Of a stretch of 49,392 nt of DNA, positions 6,362-49,094 are shown one piece after another. The number at the start of each line of letters is the position of its first letter. The stretch's first letter is position 1. The translations under genes were made by a program, and so were the position numbers. The notes below the pieces were generated by a model. It saw only the letters and a program-made list of their open reading frames with translations, did not search any database and had not been told where the DNA came from. The DNA is taken from assembly GCA_019634625.1 (NCBI GenBank), contig JAHCBA010000047.1, positions 1 to 49,392 of the forward strand, written 5' to 3'. Origin of the DNA: Verrucomicrobiia bacterium. Lineage in GTDB: Bacteria > Verrucomicrobiota > Verrucomicrobiia > Limisphaerales > CAIMTB01.

Positions 6362-7947
6362 ACCTGGTGGCGCTTCCGGTGCTGGTGCCGATGATGACGG
6401 CGCTGGTGCTGTTGTTTCTGGGGACCCGCCCGACGCTTCAGCGGGTGCTGGCGATCGGCTCCTTTGCGGGGCAGCTGGTGATTGCGGTGATGCTGGTGGG
6501 GCGGAGCTGGGACGAGGGGGTGCTGGCGTTGCCCCTGGGAGCGTGGGTGGCGCCGTACGGGATTGTGTTTGTCGCGGATCTGCTGGCGGGGCTGATGCTG
6601 ACGCTGTCGGCGGTGACCATCCTGGCCGGGGCGGTGTACGGGGTCATCGAGATGCCGGGGCGGAGGAGTCATCCGTTGCGGCTGCCGCTGCTGCAGTTTC
6701 TGGCGATGGGGATCAACCTGTCGTTTGTCACGGGCGACCTGTTCAACCTGTTTGTCGCCTTCGAGGTGCTGCTGCTGGCGAGCTACGCGCTGCTGACGCT
6801 GGAGGCGGACGACTGGGACGTGAAGCAGGCATTTCCGTATCTGGCGTTGAATGCGGTGGGGAGCACGGTGTTCCTGTGCGCGGCCGGGTTGTCGTATGCG
6901 ATGCTGGGGACGTTGAACTTCGCGGACATGTCGGCGCGGGCGGCGGACATGTCGGGCGACCCGCGGTTGATGGCGCTGGGGCTGGTGTTCGTGCTGGTGT
7001 TCGGTCTGAAGGCGGGATTGTTTCCCCTCTACTTCTGGCTGCCGCACAGCTACCCGACGCTGGCGACGCCGGTGGCGGCTGTGTTTGCGGGGTTGCTGAC
7101 GAAGGTGGGGATCTATGTGTTGATCCGGATGTGCACGACGGTGTTGCCGCACGACATGAGCGCGTTGCACGGGCTGATTGCGTGGATGTCGGGGGCGACC
7201 ATGCTGCTGGGCGTGCTGGGGGCGATCTCGAGGAACTTCATCCGCGGCATTCTGTCATTCCACATTCTGAGCCAGGTGGCCTTCATGACGCTGGCGCTGG
7301 GGCTGTTCACGCCGTTGAGCGTGGCGGCGGCCATCTTCTACATTGCGCATCACATCATCGTGAAATCGTCGTTGTTTCTGGTGGGGGGCGTGGCTGCGCT
7401 ATTGAACCGGACGGATGATCTCAACCGGATGAGCCACCTGTGGAAGGCGACGCCGTGGCTTGGGGTGGTGTTTCTGGCACAGGCGTTGTCGTTGGCGGGT
7501 CTGCCGCCGTTGAGCGGGTTCTGGGGCAAGTATCTGATCGTCGTCGAGGGCCTGGCGCAGCGGGAGTACTGGCTGGTTGGGGCGTCGCTGGTGGCCAGCG
7601 TCCTGACGTTGTTCAGCATGCTCAAGATCTGGCTGGCGGCCTTCTGGCGTGAGGAGGCGGAAGTGCGGGTGGTGCGGGAGGACCGGCGGTGGCGGCCACT
7701 GACCGTGGTGGCCGGGGCGATGACGGCGATTTCGCTGACCATCGGGTTGGGGGCCGAGCCGCTGTTGCGACTGGCCGGGCGGGCGGCGGAGATGACGCTG
7801 GACCAGGAGGGGTACCGGGACGCGGTTTTCGGTTTGCGTGGAAAGAGCCTGGAGGAGGGGATACCGGGGGTGTTGCCGGTACCGCTTCCAGGGGACGGAG
7901 CGGCGGCGGGGGGGGAGTTCCTGCCGTTTCCGGGAGGGACGCCATGA
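6358..7947 (+). CDS. mrpD: Na+/H+ antiporter subunit D (Mrp/Mnh)
   Basis: A 529-residue proton-channel subunit related to complex I NuoM/NuoN. The essential glutamate is E136 in NLFVAFEVLLLASYALL; the helix with conserved lysine and histidine residues reads YIAHHIIVKSSLFLVGG; the FPLYFWLPHSYPTLATPVAA loop is typical. The polar C-terminal tail of about 60 residues is longer than the last helix needs. Start defined by the ATGA overlap with mrpC, and the end overlaps the mrpE start. Confidence 0.95.
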   Translation: MNLVALPVLVPMMTALVLLFLGTRPTLQRVLAIGSFAGQLVIAVMLVGRSWDEGVLALPLGAWVAPYGIVFVADLLAGLMLTLSAVTILAGAVYGVIEMPGRRSHPLRLPLLQFLAMGINLSFVTGDLFNLFVAFEVLLLASYALLTLEADDWDVKQAFPYLALNAVGSTVFLCAAGLSYAMLGTLNFADMSARAADMSGDPRLMALGLVFVLVFGLKAGLFPLYFWLPHSYPTLATPVAAVFAGLLTKVGIYVLIRMCTTVLPHDMSALHGLIAWMSGATMLLGVLGAISRNFIRGILSFHILSQVAFMTLALGLFTPLSVAAAIFYIAHHIIVKSSLFLVGGVAALLNRTDDLNRMSHLWKATPWLGVVFLAQALSLAGLPPLSGFWGKYLIVVEGLAQREYWLVGASLVASVLTLFSMLKIWLAAFWREEAEVRVVREDRRWRPLTVVAGAMTAISLTIGLGAEPLLRLAGRAAEMTLDQEGYRDAVFGLRGKSLEEGIPGVLPVPLPGDGAAAGGEFLPFPGGTP

Positions 7948-9711: not shown

Positions 9712-9740
9712 GAATGGGTCCGGTGTGGTGGAACGTCCCC

Positions 9741-9885
9741 GTGCATCACGCAGTTGGGAGGAGGGGTGCGAACTCCTCGAAGCGGCGCTTCGGAGGGCCG
9801 AGTTCCACGAGGCCGCAACGGTGTGGAGCGTTGGGATGAGGACTCGCGGAGCTCGTCCCTCCGGAAGGTGTCACTCCGGAATGCG
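9741..9885 (+). repeat. Palindromic intergenic element, copy R1
   Basis: First of six copies of a family. The ends are degenerate versions of the terminal inverted repeat (GTGCATCACGCAGTTGGGAG on the left, ACTCCGGAATGCG on the right); the core holds the inner inverted repeat TCGGAGGGCCGAG / CTCGTCCCTCCG. It lies between the divergent ferritin and kinase genes. Confidence 0.85.
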
Positions 9886-25378: not shown

Positions 25379-25392
25379 ACGGGGGAATGGCC

Positions 25393-25551
25393 GTGCATCC
25401 CGGAGTTGTGGGTAGAGGCGCGAACTTCGCGAGGCATCGCCTCGGAGGGCCGAGTTCCACGAGGCCGCAACGATGGGGTGCGTTGGGATGAGGACTCGCG
25501 GAGCTCGTCCCTCCGATTTGCTGCCTCCTCACCGACACCATGGAGATGCGC
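25393..25551 (+). repeat. Palindromic intergenic element, copy R2
   Basis: The left end GTGCATCCCGGAGTTGTGGG is a perfect consensus terminus; the right end (to GGAGATGCGC) is degenerate. The core is close to R1 and R3. It sits between the divergent DUF1800 and ThuA-dehydrogenase genes; the whole gap 25331-25966 holds two elements, two simple arrays and promoters but no gene. Confidence 0.88.
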
Positions 25552-25561
25552 CCGGGTTCCC

Positions 25562-25744: not shown

Positions 25745-25895
25745 TACGAGTCGCCAGGAGGGTGGGAATTTCGCGAAGCGTTGCCCCGGAGGGCCGGGTT
25801 CCACGAGGCCGCAACGATGGGGTGCGTTGGGATGAGGACTCGCGGAGCTCGTCCCTCCGATTGGCTGCCTCCTCAACCGCGACTTCGGGATGCAC
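25745..25895 (+). repeat. Palindromic intergenic element, copy R3
   Basis: Same orientation as R1 and R2. The core and right end (CGACTTCGGGATGCAC) are well kept, but the left arm is degenerate so its border is approximate. It ends about 30 bp before the promoter of the next gene. Confidence 0.8.
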
Positions 25896-25926
25896 CGGGG
25901 GGCATGCGGCGGGTGGGTTCACGCTT

Positions 25927-28900: not shown

Positions 28901-29758
28901 CGGGTGCAGGTGATCCAGACGCTCGGGGAACTCAGGGAGGTTGGGGCGATCCCGTCCCTGATGACCGCGGTGGATTCGTCCCGTGAACCGGTCCGGGTGG
29001 CCGCCCTGGCTGCGCTGTCGGGGTTCGACCGTCCGGAGATCGGGACGGCGGTGGTGGCGAGACTGGGCGATGAGGGGTGGGCGACACCGGCGACACGGAC
29101 GGCGGCTCTGAGTCTGTTGACGGCGCGGCCGGGATGGTCGGTGCAACTGGTGGAGGCGGTCGGGGCGGGCCGGGTGGACCCGGGTTGGGTGACGTTGGAT
29201 TGGGCGAGGCGGATGGTCCGGCACCGGGATGAGGGGTTGCGGGAGAGGATTGCGCGGCGCTGGCCGGAGGCGCAGCGGCCGGTGGACACGGAGAAGGACG
29301 GGGAGATTGCGCGGTGGGTGCGGGTTATTCGCGGAGGGTCCGGGGATCCGTACCGGGGCAAGGTGCTGTTCCGGGCCGCGTGCGGGAGCTGCCATCGGTT
29401 GTTTCATGATGGGGGGGACATCGGGCCGGATCTGACACCGTTCCGGCGGGACGACCTGGAGAACCTGCTGCTGGGGATTGTGAATCCGAGTGTGGAGATC
29501 CGGGAGGGGTACGAGAACCTGCTGGTGGAGACGCGGGACGACCGGTCGTTGAGCGGATTCCTGGTGCGGCAGGACGAGCGGGTGCTGGTGATGCGCGGCC
29601 TGGACGGGCAGGACGTGGTGTTGAGGCGCGACGAGATTGCGGAGATGCGGGGCACGGGGATGTCGCTGATGCCGGAGGGGCTGCTGGACGGGATGGAAGA
29701 CCAGGAGATCCGCGACCTGTTCGCCTACCTGCGGAGCAGTCAGCCGCTGGCGAATTGA
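25967..29758 (+). CDS. ThuA / PVC membrane-bound dehydrogenase / HEAT / haem c fusion
   Basis: A 1263-residue exported protein. A signal peptide (about 1-35) is followed by a ThuA-like domain (47-270: VVFLIGEDEYFTWETL ... RVFYTSLGHPEDF), a putative membrane-bound dehydrogenase beta-propeller domain of the PVC type (about 300-690: FDERGRLWLVEYRQYPEPAG, DTDGDGRYDRHTVF, KHGPDGALYVADWYDFQINH), a HEAT-repeat-like alpha region (about 700-1100) and a C-terminal haem domain with C1139-G-S-C-H1143 and GPDLTPFRRDDLENLLLGI. The domain order is known in Planctomycetota and Verrucomicrobiota, where such proteins are thought to oxidise sugars or polyols in the periplasm. Substrate and electron acceptor unknown. 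Alternative start: ATG at 25976. Confidence 0.9.
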   Translation: MSAMRVTAGRGAIRGVAVVALALVLMGVGASGWAQGTTGGSGNEEERRPRVVFLIGEDEYFTWETLPVFAEEEIRSRGFEVRVIHADPGFKHRFPGLMEAMDGADLLVVSVRRRALAPEALETVRRHVAEGRPLVGLRTASHAFAPRGDEARHGASWETFDPEVLGGNYRGHHGSGPVTALRAAPEGEGHPVLAGIDWTGETSVGSLYRVRPLGEGARPLVVGAIPGQPEEPVAWLNLAGPRQARVFYTSLGHPEDFKRAAFRRLLLNGMFWAMGRAVPEAGVGAGSGEARYERLKPAAPPLEPAESARRFTVGDGLEWELLLSEPRIAQPLHISFDERGRLWLVEYRQYPEPAGLTLVSHDQFWRAVYDRVPPPPPNHFRGRDRISIHEDTDGDGRYDRHTVFVDGLNIATAVAVGRGGVWVLNPPYLLFYPDRDGDDVPDGDPEVHLEGFGLEDTHSVVNSLTWGPDGWLYAAQGSTVSGRVRRPGSDDEPVHTLGQNIWRYHPEQRRYEVFAEGGGNAFGLEIDDRGRIFSGHNGGNTRGFHYVQGGYLQKGFEKHGQLSNPHAFGYYPMMSHPNVERFTHTFVIYGGAALSGAFDGRLFGVEPMQGRVVMSEVQREGSTFRTRDVGHAVVSSDPWFRPVDIKHGPDGALYVADWYDFQINHWRNYQGNMDAGNGRVYRLREAGGRPVRAEDLGRASGTRLVALLSDPNRWVRHTALRVLGDRRDRSVTAMLREGLRSIDGPRALEHLWALHAVGGLDGEAARAGLRHGQAAVREWTVRLLGDEGRVPEGLFPGVLALAAGESNPEVRLQLAATARRLPTDQAMALVRGLLDRAEDADDARQPLMVWWAIEAHAAERGAVMALMDTATTWDRPLVRRHLLERIMRRYAMPGTPEDLMTCAEWLRRAPHAEARARLVAGFEQAFRDRSLAGLPGPLVEELAKAGGGSLALQLRTGRREALGAALGQVIDEGGDGGQRVQVIQTLGELREVGAIPSLMTAVDSSREPVRVAALAALSGFDRPEIGTAVVARLGDEGWATPATRTAALSLLTARPGWSVQLVEAVGAGRVDPGWVTLDWARRMVRHRDEGLRERIARRWPEAQRPVDTEKDGEIARWVRVIRGGSGDPYRGKVLFRAACGSCHRLFHDGGDIGPDLTPFRRDDLENLLLGIVNPSVEIREGYENLLVETRDDRSLSGFLVRQDERVLVMRGLDGQDVVLRRDEIAEMRGTGMSLMPEGLLDGMEDQEIRDLFAYLRSSQPLAN

Positions 29759-29788
29759 GATCGGGCCATCCTTCGTGTGAGGGCAAGG

Positions 29789-29973
29789 CTGGGTTGACGA
29801 CGGTGCATCCCCAGGTTGTCGGCACCGAGCCAGCGAATCGGAGGGACGAGCTCTGCGAGTCCTCGATCCAACGCTCCACACCGTTGCGGCCTCGTGGAAC
29901 TCGGCCCTCCGAAGCGCCGTTTGGCGGAGTTTGCACCTCTACCCACAGCTCCGGGATGCACTGGGTTGACGAC
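29789..29973. mobile_element. R4 insertion with 13-bp direct repeats
   Basis: CTGGGTTGACGAC occurs at 29789-29801 and again at 29961-29973, exactly at the two ends of repeat element R4 (one base shared with the right terminus). This is what a target-site duplication would look like and is the best evidence here that the element family moves or moved. Confidence 0.65.
29802..29961 (-). repeat. Palindromic intergenic element, copy R4
   Basis: About 160 bp with both termini kept (GTGCATCC at left, CTCCGGGATGCAC at right) and the inner inverted repeat TCGGAGGGACGAG / CTCGGCCCTCCGA. Orientation opposite to R1-R3. It fills most of the gap between the dehydrogenase gene and uvrB. Confidence 0.9.
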
Positions 29974-30041
29974 CTTCCCATTGGCTGCGGTTGGGGATCT
30001 CGAGTGGATTCCGGCGGCTCGCCTGGGGCTGGGGCGGCGGG

Positions 30042-30047
30042 TAGGGT
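30042..30047 (+). promoter_or_regulatory. -10-like TAGGGT of uvrB, leaderless type
   Basis: TAGGGT ends exactly 6 bp before the GTG start of uvrB. No good -35 hexamer is seen 16-18 bp upstream. The context GGGTAGGGT is shared with the promoter at 25949-25954. Confidence 0.45.
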
Positions 30048-30053
30048 GCGGGG

Positions 30054-32093
30054 GTGCGATTCGAACTGGAGGCACCGTACGAGCCGGCGGGGGACCAACC
30101 GGCGGCGATCGAGGCGTTGACGGCGGGGTTGGAGAAGGGGCACCGGCACCAGGTGCTGCTGGGGGTGACGGGCTCGGGGAAGACGTTCACGGTGGCGAAC
30201 GTGATCCAGCAGGTGCAGCGGCCGACGCTGGTGATCTCGCACAACAAGACGCTGGCGGCGCAGTTGTACGCGGAGTTCAAGGGGTTCTTCCCGCGGAACG
30301 CGGTGGAGTATTTCGTGAGCTACTTCGACTTCTACCAGCCGGAGGCGTACCTGCCGCGGACGGACACGTTCATCGAGAAGGATTCGAGCATCAACGAGAA
30401 CATCGAGCGGCTGCGGCTTTCGACGATGAGTTCGCTGCTGTCGCGGCAGGACACGATCGTGGTGGCGAGTGTGTCGTGCATTTACGGCATTGGGAGCAAG
30501 GACGACTACGAGGCGATGTTGTTTCCGGTGGTGACCGGGGCGGAGATGAGCCGGGAGACCCTGCTGGGGCGGCTGGTGGATCTGCAATACAGCCGGAACG
30601 ACATCGCCTTCGAGCGCGGGGAATTCCGGGTGCGTGGGGACACGGTCGAGTTGCGGCCGGCGGCGAGCGAGGACGCGGTGCGGATCGAGTTTTTCGGGGA
30701 CCAGGTGGAGCGGATCACGCGGTTCGAGCCGCTGACGGGGCAGGCGACGGAGACGCTGACGGCGCTGACGATTTTCCCCGGGAAGCAGTTTGTCACGCCG
30801 CTGGACAAGATGAAGCGGGCGATCCTGACCATCCGGGAGGAGTTGGGGGAGCGGGTCGCGTGGTTCGAGAAGCACGGGAAGCTGATCGAGGCGCAGCGGA
30901 TCAAGATGCGGACGGAGTACGATCTGGAACAGATGGAGGAGCTGGGGTTCTGCTCGGGGATCGAGAACTATTCGCGGCACATTGCGGCGCGGCCACCGGG
31001 GTCGCGGCCGTTCTGCATCATCGACTTCTTTCCGAGGGACTACCTGCTGGTGATTGATGAATCGCACGCGACGGTGCCGCAGATCGGGGGGATGTACGCG
31101 GGGGACATGGCGCGGAAGAAGGTGCTGGTCGATCACGGGTTCCGGTTGCCGAGCGCGCTGGACAACCGGCCGTTGGGGTTCGAGGAGTTCCAGGGGATGC
31201 AGCCGGACACGCTTTATGTGAGTGCGACGCCCGGGGCGCGGGAGATGGAGTGGGCCGGGGGGCGGGTGGTGGAGCAGATTGTGCGACCGACCGGACTGGT
31301 GGATCCGGAGGTGGTGGTGCGCCCCCTGAAGGGTCAGATCGACGACCTGATCGAGGAGGCCCGACGCTGTGTGGAGGCGGGGGAACGGGTGCTGGTGACA
31401 ACGCTGACGAAGCGGACGGCGGAGGAGTTGACGGATTACCTTCGGGACCTGGGGATCCGGGTGCGGTATCTGCACAGCGAGATCGATGCGATCGAGCGGG
31501 TGGAAATCCTGAGGGCGCTGAGGAAGGGGGAGTTCGACGTGCTGGTGGGGATCAATCTGCTGCGGGAGGGCCTGGACCTGCCGGAGGTGGCGCTGGTGGC
31601 GATTCTGGATGCGGACAAGGAGGGCTATCTGCGGTCCACGACGAGTCTGATGCAGACGGCGGGGCGGGCGGCGCGGCATCTCAAGGGGCGGGTGATTCTC
31701 TATGCGGACGTGCGGACAGGGAGCATCGACCGGTTCCTGACGATTTCGGCGCACCGGAGGCAGCGGCAGCTCGACCACAACCGGGAACACGGGATCGTGC
31801 CGCGGAGCGTGCAACGGGCGGTCGAGGAGGGATTGGCGCCGGGACAGGCGGAGAATTCGCGGGCGATCGGGGTGATCCGGGATGCGGGCGGGAACTACGA
31901 CGTGGTGGAGACCCTCCGGGAACTCGAGGCGGAGATGATCGAGGCGTCGAACGGGCTCGAGTTCGAGAAGGCGGCCCTGTTGCGGGACCAGATCCAGGCG
32001 CTGAAGCAGGGGAGTGGGTTGGGAGGCGACGGGGGAGGGGGGCGTGAGATGACGTATCCGAAGGGGCGCGGACGGAGGGGCAAACGACGATGA
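30054..32093 (+). CDS. uvrB: Excinuclease ABC subunit B
   Basis: A 679-residue DNA-damage recognition helicase of nucleotide excision repair; it is loaded by UvrA at lesions and recruits UvrC. The Walker A motif GVTGSGKT is at residues 37-44; the damage-inserting beta-hairpin region reads YFDFYQPEAYLP; the DEAD-like box is VIDESH; helicase motif VI is in TAGRAARH; and the C-terminal UVR domain, which binds UvrC, has LEAEMIEASNGLEFEKAALLRDQI. Length is usual. The start is a GTG at 30054 with no Shine-Dalgarno, but a TAGGGT hexamer 6 bp upstream. Its stop overlaps the next start as ATGA. Confidence 0.97.
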   Translation: MRFELEAPYEPAGDQPAAIEALTAGLEKGHRHQVLLGVTGSGKTFTVANVIQQVQRPTLVISHNKTLAAQLYAEFKGFFPRNAVEYFVSYFDFYQPEAYLPRTDTFIEKDSSINENIERLRLSTMSSLLSRQDTIVVASVSCIYGIGSKDDYEAMLFPVVTGAEMSRETLLGRLVDLQYSRNDIAFERGEFRVRGDTVELRPAASEDAVRIEFFGDQVERITRFEPLTGQATETLTALTIFPGKQFVTPLDKMKRAILTIREELGERVAWFEKHGKLIEAQRIKMRTEYDLEQMEELGFCSGIENYSRHIAARPPGSRPFCIIDFFPRDYLLVIDESHATVPQIGGMYAGDMARKKVLVDHGFRLPSALDNRPLGFEEFQGMQPDTLYVSATPGAREMEWAGGRVVEQIVRPTGLVDPEVVVRPLKGQIDDLIEEARRCVEAGERVLVTTLTKRTAEELTDYLRDLGIRVRYLHSEIDAIERVEILRALRKGEFDVLVGINLLREGLDLPEVALVAILDADKEGYLRSTTSLMQTAGRAARHLKGRVILYADVRTGSIDRFLTISAHRRQRQLDHNREHGIVPRSVQRAVEEGLAPGQAENSRAIGVIRDAGGNYDVVETLRELEAEMIEASNGLEFEKAALLRDQIQALKQGSGLGGDGGGGREMTYPKGRGRRGKRR

Positions 32094-32796: not shown

Positions 32797-32929
32797 GTGC
32801 GCGAATCGGAGGGACGAACTCCCCGAGTCCTCAACCCAACGCACTACAGTCTTGCGGTCTTGTGGAACTCGGCCCTCCGAAGCGACGCTTCGCGACGTTC
32901 GCACCTCTCCCCTCGACTTCGGGATGCAC
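32797..32929 (-). repeat. Palindromic intergenic element, copy R5, left end missing
   Basis: The core (ATCGGAGGGACGAACTC ... CTCGGCCCTCCGA) and right terminus (CGACTTCGGGATGCAC) are present, but the left about 35 bp including the terminal repeat are replaced by AT-rich sequence. Confidence 0.85.
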
Positions 32930-32998
32930 GGGGTTTGGGCTGGATGGGTGGTGGGGAGTGACAAGCAGGGGCGAAACCGGGCAGAAGAGGGGCACGCC

Positions 32999-41571: not shown

Positions 41572-41595
41572 GGACGCCGAAGATGCGCCGGGGGG

Positions 41596-41754
41596 GTGCA
41601 TCCCGGAGTTGTGGGTGAGGAGGCAGCGAATCGGAGGGACGAGCTCCGCGAGTCCTCAACCCAACGCTCCACACCCTTGCGGCCTCGTGGAACCCGGCCC
41701 TCCGAGGCGAGGCTTCGCGAAATTCGCACCGCTCCCCACAACTCCGGGATGCAC
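41596..41754 (-). repeat. Palindromic intergenic element, copy R6 (type copy)
   Basis: The most complete copy, 159 bp. The termini GTGCATCCCGGAGTTGTGGG (41596-41615) and CCCACAACTCCGGGATGCAC (41735-41754) are perfect 20-bp inverted repeats. Inside are TCGGAGGGACGAGCTC and the facing GGCCCTCCGA, plus a small hairpin GCGA-GGC-TTCGC. Lies between the hexapeptide and prepilin-like genes. Confidence 0.92.
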
Positions 41755-41822
41755 GACGCGCCAGGCTTTGCCCGGGAATCGCCTTGCCGGGCGGGGGAGG
41801 AAGGGGGTAGCAGAGGGTAGCC

Positions 41823-42659
41823 ATGAAAGGACCGTCCTCCCGGGGTGAACGGGCGTTCACGCTGATCGAACTGCTGGTTGTGATCGCCATCATTGCGATC
41901 CTGGCGAGCATGTTGTTGCCGGCGCTGGCGAGCGCGAAGTCGCGGGCGATGGCCATCAGTTGCCTGAACAATCTCAAGCAGATGGGCCTGGCCCACTTCG
42001 TGTATGTGAACGACTTCGGAAAGACCGTGCCGTACGCGCAGTACCAGGATCTGTGGATGCGGGCGTACGTCGATCACCATGCGGGGGCTCATAAGGTGCG
42101 GTTGTGCCCGGTGTCCCGGGAACAGCGGGCCAAGGCGCCGCGGAAGTCCCTGAAGGGCTCGGGGCCGTCGCGGTTTGCGGAGCTGGGGACGCTGGACGAG
42201 GCATGGATCTGGCGGACCAACGGGCCGGCCACGAGCGGGATCGAACCGGGATACCATGGCGGGTATGCGTTCAATTCGTGGTTGTACGCGGGCGGCTGGC
42301 CGTCGGGTTGGGCGGAGGAGAACCGGGCCTTCAAGGCGGAGAGCGACGTCACGCAGGCGGCCATGACCCCGGTGCTGGGCGACTCGATGTGGGTGGATGC
42401 CTGGCCGCGGGCGGAGCAGCGACCGTCATTCAACGGATACTACGGTTGGAATGATGGGGGCATGGGACGGTACCTGATCGCCCGCCACAGCCAGTCCTCG
42501 GAGGCCCGGAGCGGCCGGACCCTGCCGGCCGGGGCGAGCGTGAAGACGACGATCCAGTTTGTCTTCCAGGATGGACACGCGGAGGGAGTGCGGCCGCGGA
42601 AGATGTGGGAACTTTCCTGGCACCGGGATTATCAGCCGCCGGCGAATCCGCCGTTCTAG
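41823..42659 (+). CDS. Prepilin-type N-terminal domain protein 1
   Basis: A 278-residue exported protein of the pseudopilin-like group common in Verrucomicrobiota. The N-terminal methylation/cleavage segment [20 protein letters not shown] starts at residue 12, followed by [26 protein letters not shown]. The residue before the cleavage-site phenylalanine is alanine, not the usual glycine, so processing by prepilin peptidase could be weak. The rest is a variable globular domain ending with an [16 protein letters not shown] stretch, similar to the FLDGHA motif near the end of such proteins. Function unknown; probably cell-surface or periplasmic. A purine-rich stretch (GGAGGAAGGGGG) about 20 nt upstream may help ribosome binding. 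Confidence 0.85.
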
Positions 42660-47331: not shown

Positions 47332-47478
47332 AACGAATTGGGCTACGTCACCACTGCGGAGGGTGGGGCTGCTGTCGAGTGTCTGTCAAGCACGCCGGAT
47401 CGCCTGGAAAAAATCGAAGCTTGCCTGGGCACAGGGGGACGGGCAAACGGAGTGGCATCCTTCGAATCCGGAACGGCC

Positions 47479-48231
47479 ATGCACTATTTCCATTCTCAGA
47501 CCCGGACCGTGGGGGGCGGCACCGGGCGTTGGCGTTGGGGGTTCACCCTGATCGAACTGCTGGTGGTCATCGCCATCATCGCGATTCTGGCGAGCATGCT
47601 GCTGCCCGCCCTGGCAAAGGCCAAGGCGAAGGGGCAGGCGATCCACTGCATCAACAGCCTGAAGCAGATGGGCATCGCGATGCTCCTCTATTCGGATGAA
47701 AACGACGGGTACATCCCGCGGGGGAACGGATATCCGTGGTTCCTGGCCTACCTGCCATACATGCCCCAGGGGGTGACCGACCAGGATTACCGGGCGGTGC
47801 GCATTTACCGGTGCGCGGGGTATCCCAACACCGATTCCCGGAGGCGGCAGATCATCACGTACGTGATCAATGCCTGGAAGTTCGCTGGACCGCACGATCG
47901 GACGGGGTCGGAGCAGGTGGGTCCGTCGAAGATCACGGCCTTCGAGATTCCAAGCGATACGATTCACCTGACGGACAACGAGAACGGGAACTGGCGCCCG
48001 ATCATCACCGGCTACCGGGACGCCATCACCGACCTCAACGACGTCTGGGCGCCCGGTCATTTGCCTTACCGCGAGGGGCCTGGACCCCTACGGCTGAGCG
48101 GGGAGCGACGGGTGGCGGCGCAGCGGCACAGTCAGGGGGCCAATGCGGTTTTTCTCGATGGACATGCCAGGTATCTGAAGGCGCAGGCGATCGTGACGGA
48201 CCTCTGGCGGGAGGTGCGTACAGCGCGGTAG
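47479..48231 (+). CDS. Prepilin-type N-terminal domain protein 2
   Basis: A 250-residue pseudopilin-like protein. A 21-residue basic leader ending in GTGRWRWG precedes the methylation helix [20 protein letters not shown], then [26 protein letters not shown]. Glycine is present before the cleaved phenylalanine, as needed for prepilin peptidase. Near the end is the [17 protein letters not shown] motif typical of this group. ATG at 47479 is chosen because the upstream frame from 47314 would give an overlong leader. Function unknown, probably surface or periplasmic. Confidence 0.85.
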
Positions 48232-48308
48232 GCGTGCCTGGGCTGCCTGGTGGCAGGGCGGTGGCAGGGCGGTGGATTTCCGGGAGTGACGGGGGAAGGA
48301 TTTGAACC

Positions 48309-49094
48309 ATGAACCCTTGGCGATTCAGGCGGAGACACCGCGTTGCGGGTCCGAGACTCCGGCCGGCGACAGGTGCGGCGGGGTTCACATTGATCGAGTT
48401 GCTGGTGGTGATCGCCATAATCGCCATCCTGGCCAGCATGCTCCTGCCGGCCCTGGCCCGTGCGAAGTCGAAGGCCAGCCAGACCTACTGTCTCAACAGC
48501 GTTCGCCAGATCGGCCTGGCATCAGCGCTGTACACCGGGGACTACCAGGACCGCATTGCGCGCATGCTCAACTGGGGCAAGGCGTGGGGCAACGGGTACC
48601 GGATCGGAGACCAGTGGATGCCGGAGATGTTCCAACCCTATCTCGGAACCAACACGGTCAAACCTCAGGTCGCCGATCGAAGGCAGCATCGTCCGTTTCC
48701 GGGCGTGCTGGCCTGTCCGTCGGGCCTCAAGGTGAGGATCGTGGTGCGCGGGTCGGGAGACGACACGTTCGGGAGAGACTTCTTCTTCGACAACGACGGG
48801 GTCAGCTACGTGTGGAACCACATGTATTACGACCCGCACCGGCGGGTGTACGGGGAGAAGGCGATCAGCGGCCGGCCGGCCTCGGACATCCGAAGTCCCT
48901 CCAAGGCGGTTTTGGTGTGGGAGATCCCGTATCATCGGGCGCAGAACATGCCGCACCAGGGGGGGATGAATGTGGTTCGGGCAGACAACAGCGCCGGGTG
49001 GTTCCGGGGCAATCCGCGGCAGACGGACTGGTGGTTGAACCACAGTTTCGAGGGTTGGGATTCCGACGAACCGCCTCCGGCCCAGCCATTGTAA
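48309..49094 (+). CDS. Prepilin-type N-terminal domain protein 3
   Basis: A 261-residue pseudopilin-like protein with a 25-residue arginine-rich leader ending in TGAAG, then the same [20 protein letters not shown] helix and [26 protein letters not shown]. The remaining domain differs from those of the other two proteins. GGGGGAAGG about 10 nt before the ATG is a plausible Shine-Dalgarno. It is 77 bp after protein 2 and could share its transcript. Confidence 0.87.

Follow-up and report, generated by a model that had tools for sequence, protein, structure and literature searches.

Which kind of element R4 is, and which enzyme moved it, is the question raised by the region upstream of uvrB in the window, i.e., the whole 49,392-nt stretch of DNA analyzed here. 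R4 is a short, repeated element (163 bp) without a transposase gene, and the same 13 bp stand on either side of it. The sequence-only reading had interpreted this repeat as a likely 13-bp target-site duplication, left by a mover that may be of an unusual type.

The repeat at R4 contains a 9-bp target-site duplication

As reported, the 13-mer CTGGGTTGACGAC was found at positions 29789-29801 and 29961-29973, with zero other mismatch-free occurrences in the 49,392 nt. Given the base composition, the probability of such a match at two fixed sites is ~1e-7, making a chance origin very unlikely, as had been argued. The repeat adjoins both ends of R4, but the placement immediately outside its termini needed correction, since the last base of the left repeat (C29801) and the first three bases of the right repeat (CTG, 29961-29963) are part of the element.

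The comparison of flanks at other copies, suggested by the same reading, was run on 46 full-length R4-family copies from 1.23 Mb of the window's genome. When left and right flanks were compared at all shifts, a single shift gave nine adjacent matching columns, which matched in 61 to 78% of the copies against a background of ~30% elsewhere. This profile sets the element length at 163 bp and the duplication at 9 bp. At least eight of the nine flank bases were identical in 25 of the 46 copies, compared to 0.15% of mispaired flanks. The duplicated portion of the 13-mer at R4 is thus its inner 9 bp, GGTTGACGA, with the left copy at 29792..29800 and the right copy at 29964..29972 (no strand assigned). 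A duplication of 13 bp could not be upheld, as only nine columns rose above background; the additional matches, CTG in the left repeat and C in the right one, are the same bases as R4's own ends. Randomly paired flanks of different copies showed at least four extra matching bases in 27 of 600 cases (4.5%), so that finding 13 rather than 9 matching bases requires no explanation. The 13-bp repeat is a 9-bp target-site duplication plus four chance matches: the footprint comes from a genuine insertion, and the original reading was 4 bp too long.

R4 itself occupies 29801..29963 on the forward strand, with boundaries as in the family consensus, to which it is 88% identical. It extends two bases beyond GTGCATC at one end and two bases beyond GATGCAC at the other, and is bounded by terminal inverted repeats of ~23 bp (CGGTGCATCCCC... 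/ CAGTGCATCCCG...), namely, CGGTGCATCCCCAGGTTGTCGGC on the left (29801..29823, forward strand) and CAGTGCATCCCGGAGCTGTGGGT on the right (29941..29963, read on the reverse strand).

R4 is one of several hundred copies in the genome

The window's genome comprises 6.74 Mb in 88 contigs, and a BLAST search with R4 hit 43 places in it. The end motif gave 734 half-matches, compared to 48 for a reversed control. A profile search of 1.23 Mb, window included, recovered 105 distinct loci, corresponding by simple extrapolation to ~576 copies per genome (roughly 500 to 600). The repeat thus recurs about once per 12 kb of genome, and its exact boundary and likely mover are now fixed. The best profile match spanned both ends at 56 of the 105 loci and a single end at 39; at the other 10 it reached no end. 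Within the window, two other full-length copies (41594..41756, forward strand, and 25391..25553, reverse strand) have flanks that no longer match on flank comparison (3/9 each). Two further copies have no left end (32801..32931, forward, and 9739..9865, reverse), and one has no right end (25759..25896, reverse).

Repeats at 41851, 47537, and 48379 were considered as a further R4-type element and turned out to be the starts of prepilin-type genes; three such genes (41823-42656, 47450-47760, and 48300-48600) have N-terminal coding DNA alike enough to be detected as repeats. A candidate composite transposon at C1:282872-284351 was likewise discarded as a tandem gene duplication, in which a ~1.3-kb unit with a PEP-CTERM-like gene stands in tandem, with one R4-family copy per unit and 89% identity. 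An Rfam search returned nothing beyond one sub-threshold chance match. Gene interruption by insertions was discarded as an empty-site criterion, since long spurious reading frames arise in 67% G+C DNA.

Insertion site and empty sites

R4 starts 42 bp past the stop codon of the upstream gene, which encodes a ThuA/DUF7133/cytochrome c protein, and 90 bp separate its end from the uvrB start adopted here. It had been suggested that the insertion duplicated a TTGACG that could serve as a -35 element before uvrB. TTGACG was indeed duplicated. No promoter-like site was found around it, however, and the candidate promoter was rejected. Since neither a promoter-like nor a terminator-like site was found in 29740-30080, an effect of R4 on uvrB is unsupported.

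Upstream of uvrB, the genus mates G001 and G002 carry different genes, and the contigs of G003 and G004 yielded no usable sequence for this region; no empty site was found for R4 itself. Empty sites were recognized within the genome for a sister copy at C6:77579, which is flanked by the duplication GGAACAGTG/GGACCAGTG and inserted within a second, related small repeat. At C8:157257 and C8:9622, this second repeat is uninterrupted, with a single 9-mer (GGAACGATC and GGAACGATG, respectively) and no insert. These two loci are the expected within-genome empty site for the sister copy, not for R4. Such sites with a single 9-mer, together with the matching flanks of the 25 copies, bear out the claim that the repeat is a target-site duplication marking an insertion. 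The second small repeat family, whose ends (GGGCGCATCTCC) are related to those of R4, was found at C6 ~77480-77950, C8:157257, C8:45565, and C8:9622, and ends resembling it (GCGCATCTCC) occur at many sites in G002.

R4 shares its ends with an ISKra4-like IS

One IS with the ends of R4 resides in the same genome (G000:C21; L199 579-2773). It is 2,195 bp long and ends in CGGTGCATCCCCAAGTTGTCGGT / CAGTGCATCCCGGAGTTGTCGG. Its left end is identical to the left terminal repeat of R4 at 21 of 23 bases, and its right end to the right terminal repeat at 20 of the first 22 bases, i.e., a two-base difference per side, with the left-right asymmetry common to both elements. Other copies of the family, such as L005, have ends identical by eye to those of the IS. 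The IS carries a gene for a DruA-domain protein (PF14236, E value of 1.7e-25) and a transposase gene (C21:99779-101020) that is interrupted by an in-frame TGA and whose product shares 59% identity with the transposase of an open copy, L179. The latter was found in a genus mate (G004:C12), where two ends 2.2 kb apart enclose a DruA-domain gene (PF14236) and the transposase gene. A search with the L179 transposase across the 88 contigs of the window's genome found one close relative, the C21 copy. No matching flanks were found at the resident IS; given these unmatched flanks and the in-frame TGA in the sole copy found, no active source was observed.

The best NCBIfam match of the L179 transposase is ISKra4 (E value of 4e-45, 154.6 bits). 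Full-length proteins scored between 154.6 and 193.2 bits, under the curated cut-off of NF033572 (205 bits) and with ISKra4 still the best family, and the parent IS is therefore named ISKra4-like. Two Asp residues are invariant in the transposase alignment (D165 in MDGWM and D255 in DGxxW), and a Glu in GSGxxE is conserved in all six sequences reaching that point; these three would be the catalytic DDE residues. The end motif is also present in further genomes, which we take to be Limisphaerales. Of thirteen related loci from other genomes, most end in the same way (GTGCATC/GCGCATC-type); flank duplications are 9/9 at L218, L220, and L222 and 8/9 at L221, which also carries a DruA gene. A terminal C and 9-bp duplications occur in both the short element and the Limisphaerales IS, while some relatives begin with G.

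Prokaryotic Mutator-like elements have repeats of 18 to 39 bp, a terminal C, and duplications of 8 to 9 bp (PMC3942029). Given this range and the perfect 9-bp duplications of related IS, the mover is neither unusual nor IS200-like. R4 is very probably a miniature inverted-repeat transposable element (MITE) mobilized by the ISKra4-like, Mutator-type DDE transposase of the ~2.2-kb IS with the same ends. In the proposed course of events, R4, being non-autonomous, would have inserted into the stretch that separates uvrB from the cytochrome-type gene upstream. The transposase would have acted in trans, binding the ~23-bp terminal repeats and linking the ends of R4 to target strands that had been cut with a 9-bp stagger; gap repair would then have duplicated the target 9-mer. 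The parent would be a ~2.2-kb IS encoding the DruA-domain protein and the transposase, possibly the present copy, which survives with its in-frame stop, or a close relative. What looked like an oddity, a 13-bp duplication and an unknown mover, thereby becomes a standard case.

The ISKra4 group (p-MULT 4 of the prokaryotic Mutator-like IS), the best-matching family of the parent transposase, resembles R4 in its inverted repeats of ~20 to 25 bp starting with C and in its 9-bp duplications; it differs in that R4 has no gene and the parent, scoring under the ISKra4 cut-off, carries a DruA-domain gene. In three Verrucomicrobiota genomes (L179, L199, and L221), a DruA-domain gene (PF14236, Druantia family) stands directly before an ISKra4-like transposase gene, both enclosed by one set of inverted repeats. 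Accessory genes are known in some ISKra4-group/p-MULT 4 members (PMC3942029), and no mention of a DruA-domain gene in such IS was found in the literature searched. Circular intermediates with 6 to 10 bp between the ends have been described for prokaryotic Mutator-like elements (PMC3942029). At C4 ~7230-7548, R4-family copies stand in tandem with a gap of exactly 9 bp, and at L199 383-579 a small repeat lies exactly 9 bp from the resident IS (C21); both spacings fit the insertion of circular or tandem forms.

Other movers and origins

The center of R4 is a REP-like inverted pair, and ~30 Y1 transposase genes are present in the genome, so R4 could be read as a REPIN whose mover is an IS200-like (Y1, RAYT) transposase, with the 13-bp repeat incidental. 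To our knowledge, Y1 enzymes make no target duplication, and yet 25 of the 46 copies have one; moreover, the ends of R4 match a DDE-type IS, and 95 of the 105 distinct copies retain at least one terminal repeat. Among the Y1 loci examined, no RAYT gene with this REP in its flanks was found in G020, G006, or G028, nor in G000 beyond MITE copies that lie nearby by chance. We therefore consider a Y1 mover very improbable. The Y1 transposases, most of them from one ~980-bp family, do not have the ends of R4 and were discarded as candidates. About 27 copies of this ~980-bp unit (e.g., L078, L080, L081, and L086) are present, mostly at least 90% identical; the repeated part starts and stops almost at the limits of the gene itself, and many units lie at contig ends, where they probably broke the assembly.

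Some IS4-family members make duplications of 10 to 13 bp. Taken at face value, the raw 13-mer would agree with another DDE transposase of this kind (e.g., IS4/IS231-type) making a true 12- to 13-bp duplication, but in the family flanks, matching above background is confined to the nine columns, and none of the four DDE_Tnp_1 (PF01609) genes found has R4 ends. These IS4-type transposases were accordingly rejected, and such a mover is hardly credible unless R4, alone in its family, was moved differently. The unmatched flanks of some copies and the copy pair within a tandem gene duplication would also be expected if recombination or slippage, rather than insertion, had produced the repeat, an origin that we judge extremely improbable since the identical boundary and length recur at dozens of unrelated sites and empty paralogous sites exist.

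A REP-like pair forms the interior of R4

With an ISKra4-like transposase as the favored mover, the mover is of a known kind, and the specialist interest of R4 lies in its REP-like cargo and in the DruA gene of its parent IS. The first REP-like arm, CGGAGGGACGAGCTCTGCGAGTCC (29839..29862, forward strand), has 590 matches in the genome at up to 3 mismatches, compared to 0 for the reversed control. The second arm, CGGAGGGCCGAGTTCCACGAGGCC (29888..29911, reverse strand), is inverted and pairs with the first in the folded strand, the center folding as a long hairpin (DNA z-score of -2.9). Like other bacterial MITEs (ERIC, NEMIS, and MITEAba12), which are 70 to 300 bp long and moved in trans, R4 has terminal inverted repeats and no coding capacity, but its family runs to several hundred copies, and its body is a REP-like pair rather than an IS remnant. 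With REPINs it shares a pair of inverted REP-like palindromes with a short spacer between them; it differs in that DDE-type ends and 9-bp duplications surround the pair and in that no linked RAYT gene was found.

The same REP-like pair, without R4-type ends, was detected in G020, G006, G028, and others. Arm matches numbered 464 in the window's genome, 48 in G020, and 24 in G006, and zero matches were found in four genus mates. A MITE center formed by a REP-like pair that occurs without R4-type ends in other Limisphaerales and is absent from four genus mates is mildly new. On the simplest reading, the pair would have been captured by the MITE in the window's lineage and then spread by its ends. 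In its fuller form, this scenario has a REP-type pair entering the lineage, becoming trapped between ISKra4-like/DruA IS ends, and then being carried to hundreds of sites by a DDE transposase, not by a RAYT; we give it an even chance. If true, the repeat family would have switched vehicles. The natural occurrence of a REP-like palindrome pair inside a DDE-type element is a caution against assigning such repeats to RAYT from the palindrome alone. G001 and G007 have MITEs with R4-type ends that lack the REP pair, and at L180, direct reading gave CGGCGAATC on both sides.
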